Positions 29,321 to 36,447 of a stretch of DNA of 64,000 nucleotides are shown here, piece after piece. The notes below the pieces were generated by a model. That model searched no databases. It worked only from the letters and a program-made list of their open reading frames with translations, and had not been told where the DNA came from. The position numbers were made by a program, and so were the translations under genes. The stretch comes from an uncultured Algibacter sp. (GTDB lineage Bacteria; Bacteroidota; Bacteroidia; Flavobacteriales; Flavobacteriaceae), in the NCBI RefSeq assembly GCF_947487575.1, contig NZ_CANKXG010000008.1, positions 179,451 to 243,450 on the forward strand, given 5' to 3'. Position 1 is the stretch's first letter. Each line of letters opens with the position of its first letter.

Positions 29321-29350
29321 CGTCATGCTGAACTTGTTTCAGCATCTCAC
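29321..29350 (+). repeat. GTCATGCTGAACTTGTTTCAGCATCTCA dispersed repeat
   Basis: ATGCTGAACTTGTTTCAGCAT is an imperfect palindrome and a frequent flavobacterial intergenic repeat. A close relative (GTCATCCTGAACTTGTTTCA plus GGATC) lies at 34341-34370. Confidence 0.65.
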
Positions 29351-30291: not shown

Positions 30292-31740
30292 ATGCTTTTA
30301 AACCCAACATTTTTAAAACTAAGTAAAACACAATTACTTATCGCATTATCAAGCGTGTTATTCTATTGGGCTTTTGCTTACGATTTAATTAGAACCGATT
30401 ACATAAAACTCATCATGCTGTATAGCGCGTTGTTTATTTTGTTCTATAAACTAGTACAGCGTTTTAAAAGCAATATTCAATTTTTAAGCTATTTAGCCTT
30501 TGGGTTTCGAGCTATTTTTATTTTAGCCATACCTAACCTGTCACAAGATTTTTATCGTTTTATATGGGATGGTCGCATGATATTAGAAGGCATAAACCCT
30601 TATTTATTTACCGTAGAATCGTTTATAAGCAAAGATGAATTTCCTGTAGCAGAAGCTTTGGAACTGCGCGCTGGCATGGGCAGTTTAAATGCCAGTCATT
30701 TCACTAATTATCCGCCAATAAATCAACTCTGTTTTACCATTGCTGCTCTATTTGCTGGAAAAAGCATTTTAGGTTCGGTAGTAGTTATACGCTTGCTTAT
30801 TATTGCTGCCGATTTTGGAACGCTGCACTTTGGTAAAAAACTATTAGAAAAACTAAAGCTACCTGCGCATCATATATTTTGGTATATTTTAAATCCGTTT
30901 ATCATTATAGAACTTACAGGCAATCTGCATTTTGAAGGGGTTATGATTTTCTTTTTAGTATGGAGTTTGTATTTGCTTTATGTTGGCAAATGGCAATTCG
31001 CTGCAGTGGTTTTAGCCTTATCTATTTCAGTAAAATTGATTCCGTTAATATTTTTGCCTTTGTTTTTTCAGTGGTTTGTAAAGCGAAACGTCATTGCGAA
31101 CAAAGTGTCGCTATCTGCTAAAAAGGAAGAGATTGCCACGTCGTTACCTCCTCGCAATGACCTATGGAAGGGAATGACAAAACTGATTGGGTTTTATACC
31201 ATAGTCATCTTGACTACGCTCCTACTTTTTGCGCCGTTTTATTCCTCAGAATTTGTAAACAACTATTCAACAACGGTGGCACTCTGGTTTCAAAACTTCG
31301 AGTTTAATGGCAGTATCTACTACATAGCCAGAGAAATTGGATACTTGTTTAGAGGTTATAACGAAATTGCTATTATTGGAACTATAACACCCATACTTGT
31401 TATACTGTTTGTTTTAATCATCACCTTTTTTAGAAGAAATAGAACGCCTATACAACTTATTACAGCGATGCTACTAGTATTATCATTTTATTATTTTACA
31501 ACCACTACAGTACACCCTTGGTACGTTGCCTCACTATTAATACTTTCAATTTTTACTAAATACAAATTTCCTTTAGTCTGGAGTTTTGTAATTATACTTA
31601 GTTACTTGGCATATATAAACCTTAACAAAGCCGATAAATCTGAAAACCTTTGGGTCATTGCTTTGGAATATGTTATTGTTTATGGCGTATTTATTTGGGA
31701 AGTATTCATAAAAAAGGTTTCCAAAACATTGGAAACCTAA
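30292..31740 (+). CDS. GT-C-type polyprenyl-phosphate glycosyl(mannosyl)transferase-like membrane protein
   Basis: 482 residues and roughly 11 membrane helices. An acidic motif after the second helix pair ('LSQDFYRFIWDGRMILEGIN') is typical of GT-C enzymes of the GT87/DUF2029 style, which use lipid-linked sugars on the outer face. It would suit the lipid-sugar product of the DPM1-like gene at 27123. Residues about 266-290 ('VIANKVSLSAKKEEIATSLP') are hydrophilic and come from an in-frame repeat inserted in a loop between helices. The 3' end contains a terminator hairpin over the last codons. Confidence 0.8.
   Translation: MLLNPTFLKLSKTQLLIALSSVLFYWAFAYDLIRTDYIKLIMLYSALFILFYKLVQRFKSNIQFLSYLAFGFRAIFILAIPNLSQDFYRFIWDGRMILEGINPYLFTVESFISKDEFPVAEALELRAGMGSLNASHFTNYPPINQLCFTIAALFAGKSILGSVVVIRLLIIAADFGTLHFGKKLLEKLKLPAHHIFWYILNPFIIIELTGNLHFEGVMIFFLVWSLYLLYVGKWQFAAVVLALSISVKLIPLIFLPLFFQWFVKRNVIANKVSLSAKKEEIATSLPPRNDLWKGMTKLIGFYTIVILTTLLLFAPFYSSEFVNNYSTTVALWFQNFEFNGSIYYIAREIGYLFRGYNEIAIIGTITPILVILFVLIITFFRRNRTPIQLITAMLLVLSFYYFTTTTVHPWYVASLLILSIFTKYKFPLVWSFVIILSYLAYINLNKADKSENLWVIALEYVIVYGVFIWEVFIKKVSKTLET
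31090..31161. repeat. In-frame GTCATTGCGA palindromic repeat inside the GT-C-like gene
   Basis: GTCATTGCGA (31090-31099) and its exact complement TCGCAATGAC (31152-31161) bound a 72-base unit with an internal GAGATTGCCACGTCGTTACC. This is the style of the dispersed GTCATTGCGA...GCAATGAC repeats that are normally intergenic. It keeps the reading frame and adds about 24 hydrophilic residues. Confidence 0.8.
31716..31737. terminator. Bidirectional terminator overlapping the end of the GT-C-like gene
   Basis: GGTTTCCAA / TTGGAAACC with an AACA loop covers the last coding bases. On the minus strand the hairpin is followed by TTTTT, so it is best placed to end transcription of the convergent acidic-protein gene. 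Confidence 0.65.
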
Positions 31741-34340: not shown

Positions 34341-34370
34341 TAAGATCCTGAAACAAGTTCAGGATGACAG
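34341..34370 (-). repeat. GTCATCCTGAACTTGTTTCAGGATC dispersed repeat
   Basis: An imperfect palindrome (ATCCTGaaacaagttCAGGAT on plus) in the 53-base gap between mevalonate kinase and UbiA. It supplies the UbiA leader and explains the false upstream TTG start. It is related to 29321-29350. Confidence 0.7.
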
Positions 34371-35337: not shown

Positions 35338-36447
35338 TTACAACAGTTTTGCCCCAAAACCAATTTTATCGTTAATATACTCACCTTTTTGACAAAAGAC
35401 AACTAATTCAGTATTAATGAATTCCATAACTGATTTTGCCTCATTTTCAGGATACAACACATGTACATTAGCTCCTGCATCAAGTGTAAAACATATTTTT
35501 GAGCCTGAAGTTTTACGGTAATTCCAAATTTTATTAATAATTTCCAAAGTATTTGGTTTCATTAATATGAAATAAGGCATACTGGTCATCATCATGGCAT
35601 GGAGTGTTAATGCTTCACTTTCCACTAGTGCAATAAATGCATTTAAATCACCATTTTTCAATATAGAAATCATGTCAGAAAGGTTTTTACCTGCTTGTTT
35701 AAATCGCTCTTGAGCAAATGGATGATTATGCATTAAATTGTGCCCAACAGTACTGCTTACCTGTTTTTTACCTTTATCAACTAATAAAATAGTATCCTGA
35801 TAATTTTTGAAGTTAGAGTGTACTTCGTAAGGATATTTTATGCCGAACAAATCTGAACTTCCTTTAATTTCTTCATGTTTTCCCCAAACTACTAAATCAC
35901 CTTCAAGACTTCGGCAAGCACTTCCAGAACCTAAACGTGCTAAAAATGATGCTTTTTGAATGAAATAATTTTCATCATAAGACTTTTCGACTGCGCTCAA
36001 GGTAACATCAGACTTAATTAATTCCTTTTCTATGCTCATTAAACACAACGCCAATGCACTCATTCCTGAAGCAGAAGATGCTATACCTGAACTATGTGGA
36101 AATGTATTTGATGTTTCTATTTTAAAATGATACCCCTTTAAAAAAGGTAAATAGGCTTCTATACGCTTAAAAAAAGTTTCAATTTTTGGTTTAAAATCGT
36201 CTTTTTTTTCGTCATCTAAAAACACTTCAAACGACAAGTTACCATCGTTTTCTTTTTTTGTAAAACTCAGCTTTGTATTTGTCTTACAATTGTTTAGTGT
36301 AAAACTAATAGAAGGATTTTCTGGAATTTGATGTTCTTTCTTCCCCCAGTATTTTACCAAAGCAATATTACTTGGTGAAGACCATGTGAAACTGCCTTTT
36401 TCTATACTATTTGAATACGCTTTTGGAATAAAACCTGCTGCTATCAT
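35338..36447 (-). CDS. mvaD: Diphosphomevalonate decarboxylase
   Basis: 369 residues. ATP-dependent decarboxylation of mevalonate diphosphate to IPP. Signatures: 'SSPSNIALVKYWGKKE' near the N-terminus, the GHMP loop 'PHSSGIASSASGMSAL', 'RLGSGSACRSLEGDLVVWG', and 'FTLDAGANVHVLYP' with the conserved Asp near the C-terminus. It is upstream of mevalonate kinase by 28 bases, first gene of the isoprenoid run. Confidence 0.9.
   Translation of the reverse strand: MIAAGFIPKAYSNSIEKGSFTWSSPSNIALVKYWGKKEHQIPENPSISFTLNNCKTNTKLSFTKKENDGNLSFEVFLDDEKKDDFKPKIETFFKRIEAYLPFLKGYHFKIETSNTFPHSSGIASSASGMSALALCLMSIEKELIKSDVTLSAVEKSYDENYFIQKASFLARLGSGSACRSLEGDLVVWGKHEEIKGSSDLFGIKYPYEVHSNFKNYQDTILLVDKGKKQVSSTVGHNLMHNHPFAQERFKQAGKNLSDMISILKNGDLNAFIALVESEALTLHAMMMTSMPYFILMKPNTLEIINKIWNYRKTSGSKICFTLDAGANVHVLYPENEAKSVMEFINTELVVFCQKGEYINDKIGFGAKLL

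Follow-up and report, generated by a model that had tools for sequence, protein, structure and literature searches.

An intergenic-type palindromic repeat in frame in a flavobacterial glycosyltransferase gene, and a loop that has very probably taken up several repeat families

Introduction

Palindromic repeats that are dispersed between genes can also be found inside them, which raises the question of how an enzyme tolerates such an insertion. We address this question for a window of 64,000 nucleotides from an uncultured marine Algibacter sp. (Flavobacteriaceae), in which a gene for a predicted membrane glycosyltransferase contains a 72-bp palindromic unit. A sequence-only reading of this DNA had proposed that the unit is an intergenic-type repeat in the course of becoming protein. 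Here, we ask whether the unit is an insertion, whether it is a single case, and what may have brought it there.

Results

The repeat unit and its host protein

The following features were recognised at the locus (window positions):

30292-31740, + strand: gene for a predicted GT-C-fold membrane glycosyltransferase of 482 aa (intact open reading frame, Foldseek, weak NCBIfam matches)
31090-31161, + strand: 72-bp inverted-dimer palindromic repeat (type A), encoding residues 267-290, VIANKVSLSAKKEEIATSLPPRND; pLDDT <50 at residues 268-286
31090-31116, + strand: left monomer, GTCATTGCGAACAAAGTGTCGCTATCT, with partial decay relative to GTCATTGCGANNNNANNGAAGCAATCT of copies in relatives
31130-31161, - strand: right monomer, GTCATTGCGAGGAGGTAACGACGTGGCAATCT as reverse complement, near-consensus (94% over 33 nt against the consensus built from the other genomic copies)
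31090-31099, + strand: left terminal inverted repeat of 10 bp (exact-arm check)
31152-31161, - strand: right terminal inverted repeat of 10 bp (exact-arm check)
31170-31179, + strand: GGGAATGACA, candidate remnant of the end of an older type-B repeat, coding for GMT of ...GMTKLIGFY

The 72-base unit with exact inverted ends described in the sequence-only reading is present at exactly 31090-31161, with perfect 10-bp arms (GTCATTGCGA/TCGCAATGAC) and 52 nt in between. Its length is a multiple of three, and its 24 codons are read within one open frame as VIANKVSLSAKKEEIATSLPPRND, so that the frame is kept and about 24 residues are added, as had been claimed. The description of these residues as charged was fair in a mild sense only, since K, R, D and E make up 7 of the 24. 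The RNA fold of the unit was more stable than that of shuffled sequences (z = -2.8). Its left end reads aaaCGTCATTGCGA and its right end aGGTCATTGCGA; GTAG is absent from both ends, and no target-site duplication is visible at the unit, where the flanks aaac and ctat differ. The nearby GGGAATGACA occupies the position of the ...GCAGGAATGACA end in the intact type-B inserts of four homologues (L064, L080, L108 and L111), and by this shared position it is possibly a remnant of an older type-B end.

The best Foldseek matches of the host protein were GPI mannosyltransferase I (9wno, E 5.7e-5), PimE (9dm5) and ALG6 (6snh), all with a probability of 1.00 and TM-scores of 0.49-0.56 by query. Matches to the NCBIfam MptA/MptB mannosyltransferases were weak, and a Pfam search of the protein returned no family match. 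An AlphaFold2 model built from 60 orthologues reached a pLDDT of 79.5 and a pTM of 0.83. By these fold-level matches the host enzyme has a GT-C fold, in agreement with the earlier assignment as GT-C-like, and it would probably use a lipid-linked sugar donor. In the model the insert falls in the low-confidence stretch 268-286 (pLDDT <50) between the helices 250-274 and 288-316, which is the interhelix loop that had been proposed. The flanks of this loop are lysine-rich, and the positive-inside rule therefore suggests a cytoplasmic location.

Copies of the repeat in the genome

The motif GTCATTGCGAG occurs in 11 exact copies in the 3.5-Mb genome (35 contigs), while its reversed control occurs 0 times; further copies, which the sequence-only reading had suggested looking for, are thus present. 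The unit common to these copies is (C)GTCATTGCGAGGAG...CGACGTGGCAATCT, in which the base preceding GTC is C in several genomic copies and T, G or another base in the rest. The right half of the unit, AGATTGCCACGTCGTTACCTCCTCGCAATGAC, matches copies elsewhere over ~32 nt. Among the eleven copies, the one in the GT-C gene is the only one within a long ORF. A second copy with both exact 10-bp ends at the same spacing was not found in this genome, because elsewhere the repeat occurs as single units or with longer spacers.

A chance palindrome in ordinary coding sequence can practically be dismissed. The shortness of the 10-bp ends is all that speaks for it, against which stand the 11 copies versus 0 in the control, the match of ~32 nt to dispersed repeats and the fact that orthologues change length at that very site.

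Loop length in orthologues

We collected homologues from 60 relatives and 80 further loci, and measured the loop between fixed anchors. Loop size ranged from 21 to 98 residues, and distant homologues carry a minimal loop of 21 residues. Loops without recognisable repeat DNA were mostly 21-36 aa (anchors included) versus 52 aa in the window protein. Hence, the 72-bp unit is an insertion relative to the orthologues; orthologues free of repeat DNA do not carry the same loop. A perfect empty site for the exact insertion of the window was not found among the homologues. The loop of the nearest short-loop relative (L004, genome G006) is shorter by 17 aa rather than 24, so that a small deletion or replacement has to be assumed as well. 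The window protein forms a clade with L004, L045 and L046 (support 98%), in which all four loops are different: one is of type A, one is short, one has a decayed A and one has C together with D.

Repeat families in the loop

In the longer loops, the DNA contains abundant in-frame palindromic repeats that can be recognised as such, and we assigned these to five types:

Type A: GTCATTGCGA...GCAATCT, read as NVIANEMKQSVS..EIATSQ.PRND
Type B: GGATTCCTGCCTTCGCAGGAATGAC, read as KWIPAFAGMT
Type C: CTGAAACAAGTTCAGCATGAC, read as ILKQVQHD
Type D: around TCGACTGCGCTCGA, read as ACAERSRS or PLDYARGD
Type E: GTCATTTCGA...GAGAAATCTC, read as NVISTE.SDEKS

Types A-D have copies elsewhere in the genomes of the set, and their reversed controls were all zero. 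Type E is weaker and rests mainly on repeat anatomy, because a tight pattern gave few genomic copies. A search of Rfam with the repeat gave no match. In total, at least five unrelated families recur in the loop, often stacked and always in frame. The longest loop (L047, 98 aa) contains matches to A, C, D and E together, and stacked and nested repeats within one loop were also seen in L046, L067 and L048. In many genera the type-A copies share their insertion point (KRN|VIAN...PRND) and orientation, and several loops retain only the right half of type A (EIATS..PRND).

Outside the loop, near-identical type-A copies form clusters between genes with a spacing of ~89-95 bp at L138 (G014:C16 near 51000) and L125 (G001:C27 near 49500).

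Among 100 homologues, strong repeat matches (local-alignment score >=15 to the repeat consensuses) were found in 34 of the 51 long loops, but in only one of the 49 short loops. At this score none of 326 same-sized segments elsewhere in the same genes and none of 510 codon-shuffled loops matched. We relied on this stricter cut-off because a looser threshold gave 10% matches in the control segments. Long loops without a recognisable repeat numbered 17 of 51 at score 15 and 10 of 51 at the looser cut-off; these ten require other routes of lengthening or full decay of the repeat.

In a tree built without the loop columns, with family presence called by similarity cut-offs, the minimum number of presence changes was 21 for A (present in 24 rows), 11 for B, 12 for C, 18 for D and 8 for E, parsimony counts that do not separate gains from losses on a tree in which 40 of the 97 inner branches are weak.

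Repeats inside other conserved genes

Of 92 repeat copies examined, 27 were within long open frames that extend for at least 30 codons to either side, one of them (L195) in a doubtful ORF; these numbers do not measure the true fraction, because the genomes were partly picked for glycosyltransferase inserts and the glycosyltransferase loop itself accounts for 9 of the 27. Hosts named by NCBIfam were PurL, Mfd, GDP-fucose synthase (Fcl), IcmF, GltX, GHMP kinase, LeuS, RNase R, HemW and BioF. The solved GltX structure 6b1z lacks the insert.

Mfd contains a second hot spot, likewise a loop. Among 37 relatives this loop holds type A in several species, a D-like repeat in G008 and type C in G015 and G016, and it is empty in G002, G003 and G005. 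The Mfd of the window's own genome (L215) carries a sixth repeat type in frame, the GTCATTCAGAGC type, in which GTCATTCAGAGCAAAGCGAAGAATCTC is read as CHSEQSEES. PurL, also compared among 37 relatives, has type A in three and is empty elsewhere. Inspection by eye of filled and empty pairs of PurL and Mfd revealed no consistent target duplication.

Two further genes deserve mention. A single GHMP kinase gene (L158/L170, G060:C27) contains two separate in-frame type-C inserts, EMLKQVQHDET and EILKQVQHDET. Within the window, the gene for MvaD (diphosphomevalonate decarboxylase, 35338-36447, - strand) has an in-frame type-D-like core, VTLSAVEKSYD, at 35986-36003, a site at which solved homologues are shorter by ~17 residues.

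Length and frame of coding dimers

The 15 coding dimers that were recognised each have a length of 72 or 75 bp, and all use the same one of the six frames. In contrast, the 13 intergenic dimers range from 71 to 90 bp, and none of them measures 72 or 75 bp (Fisher p ~3e-8, an overstated value since some coding copies share ancestry). The frame used is open in all coding dimers and is the most hydrophilic (GRAVY -0.69), whereas an alternative frame, open in 12 of the 15, is strongly hydrophobic (GRAVY +1.03). These lengths raise the tentative and rather unlikely idea that the copies in genes form a subfamily of their own, adapted to coding: 72-75-bp palindromic dimers, open and hydrophilic in one frame, that spread from gene to gene and have tolerant loops (GT-C, Mfd, PurL, GltX) as their main habitat. 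If so, such loops would store selfish DNA and steadily give rise to new protein segments.

Discussion

Origin of the inserts

The reading that we favour, and hold to be very probable, is that an intergenic palindromic repeat was inserted in frame and that the permissive loop took up several families many times, with selection acting mainly as a filter. A repeat that is or once was mobile, an inverted dimer of ~30-nt hairpin units, would have entered the exposed interhelix loop. The enzyme would have gained 24 disordered residues without being broken, as the length of the insert is divisible by three and translation uses the stop-free, most hydrophilic frame; drift would later have eroded the insert. 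Since the loop appears to tolerate almost anything in frame, unrelated families may have entered it many times in the ancestry of the Flavobacteriaceae, beside or inside one another, followed by erosion and in-frame loss. Selection would mainly keep the frame and a soluble peptide. Neutral in-frame insertion filtered by loop tolerance thus appears most likely, and no function of the insert peptide is indicated. Of this reading, the data establish what the repeat is, that it was inserted in frame, that the loop varies and takes several families, that other genes are hosts as well, and that length and frame are biased; from these we infer an order of insertions in the loop and the existence of an enzyme that mobilises the repeats.

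The shared insertion point and orientation of type A in many genera, and the loops that retain its right half only, would also be expected if a single ancestral type-A insertion had been inherited throughout the clade and had diversified by decay and loss. We regard this as unlikely, because no fewer than four further families (B, C, D and E), with copies elsewhere or a clear anatomy, occur in varied combinations, near-intact A copies appear in distant rows with short loops in between, and A alone requires at least 21 changes. A mixture of one old A insertion and many later ones may apply. It is very improbable that the inserts were selected for a tuning effect of the repeat peptide, or of an mRNA hairpin, on the enzyme or on its expression. 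Hairpin stability above that of shuffled sequences, the recurrent hits in conserved genes and the use of one frame only would fit such a role, but the loop sequence varies between close relatives, many relatives do without an insert, unrelated families replace each other, and solubility explains the frame bias.

Insertion might also be directed to these sites, either because a palindrome already in the loop draws in others or because copies in the gene and between genes are exchanged by recombination. In agreement with this, single loops contain stacked and nested repeats, and the Mfd loop of different species holds four types. Permissive loops alone predict equal clustering, however, since the gene would not retain insertions at other positions, and PurL, GltX, LeuS and others carry inserts without a known prior palindrome. 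Site-directed insertion is therefore doubtful, and we retain repeated neutral uptake by a permissive loop.

A RAYT can be rejected as mobiliser: the genome encodes a single Y1 transposase, which has another repeat on its flanks, and the sampled copies have neither a transposase-like ORF nearby nor a Y1-like ORF in their loci. This single Y1 (RAYT-like) transposase shares one open frame with hemF (L043:340-1863, - strand; G000:C10 near 34700), possibly as a transposase-HemF fusion, and the palindrome that joins and flanks the two, GACCTACAAGGTTTTNAAAACCTNGCAGGTC, is a different repeat.

Comparison with known repeats

In-frame palindromes in proteins are already known from the Rickettsia RPEs and from intragenic REPs. 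The earlier proposal that a repeat has become protein here is supported, but the window is not a single case, and the phenomenon has precedents in Rickettsia, Wolbachia and intragenic REPs. RPEs are in-frame palindromes of several families in many conserved genes (Ogata et al. 2000, 2002, reviewed in PMC2229807, PMC10969869). By description, the repeats studied here resemble them as selfish palindromic repeats in frame in conserved genes, with several families and tolerant host proteins. They differ in length (72-75 bp here, 105-146 bp for RPEs according to PMC2229807) and in host (free-living Flavobacteriaceae here, obligate intracellular alphaproteobacteria there), and in the Flavobacteriaceae several families have serially invaded a single loop. 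The Wolbachia palindromic element (Ogata et al. 2005), which is compared by its description only, is likewise a protein-coding palindrome in another host.

According to the parts of Di Nocera et al. 2013 (PMC3733652) that bear on this, CGTC- and GTAG-tagged REPs are palindromes of 20-40 nt whose intragenic dimers encode 20-30 aa, CGTC REPs without a dedicated transposase are known in Bacteroidetes (Gramella forsetii), and in two Xanthomonas species recB carries different REPs at approximately the same site; in those parts, we found no description of a hot spot shared by five families across dozens of species. The repeats studied here are similar to CGTC REPs in that they are short, dispersed palindromic units, single or in inverted dimers, that flank no Y1 transposase in the sampled loci; the CGTC tag is found at the left end, but is absent from the right end and from some copies. 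They do not match RAYT-mobilised GTAG REPs, as the unit ends lack GTAG and no RAYT is flanked by the repeat. MITEs (ERIC/RU, Correia, QMITE1; PMC2229807, PMC10969869) are likewise small elements with inverted repeats that are non-autonomous and can form in-frame fusions with ORFs, and the 72-bp unit shares their terminal inverted repeats; in contrast to MITEs, neither a target-site duplication nor a parent transposon was found for the repeats here.

Three features look new: the entry of different families, one after another, into one loop in dozens of species of free-living Flavobacteriaceae, the second loop in Mfd, and the coding-sized subfamily. We found no prior description of these three in the open-licence literature, which is weak evidence, and a literature search with the bare repeat sequence returned primers and unrelated text only. 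Our results extend protein-coding palindromes to free-living Bacteroidota, with one loop recording many rounds in which selfish DNA turned into protein. The empty, freshly filled, stacked, eroded and lost states of one orthologous loop in ~100 genomes form a natural series, in which passage through the protein-level filter, gain of function, rate of erosion and ongoing movement of transposase-less REPs can therefore be tested. For annotation, ILKQVQHD, KWIPAFAGMT, ACAERSRS and VIASETKQS in flavobacterial proteins should be regarded as translated repeats rather than domains.

Two type-C repeats also lie between genes in the window. One (29322-29342, - strand) is located just 3' of a GT2 gene and ~1 kb 5' of the GT-C gene. 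The other (34348-34368, + strand), which lies between genes for a GHMP kinase and UbiA, overlaps the predicted N-terminus of UbiA, the true start of which is probably a later ATG.
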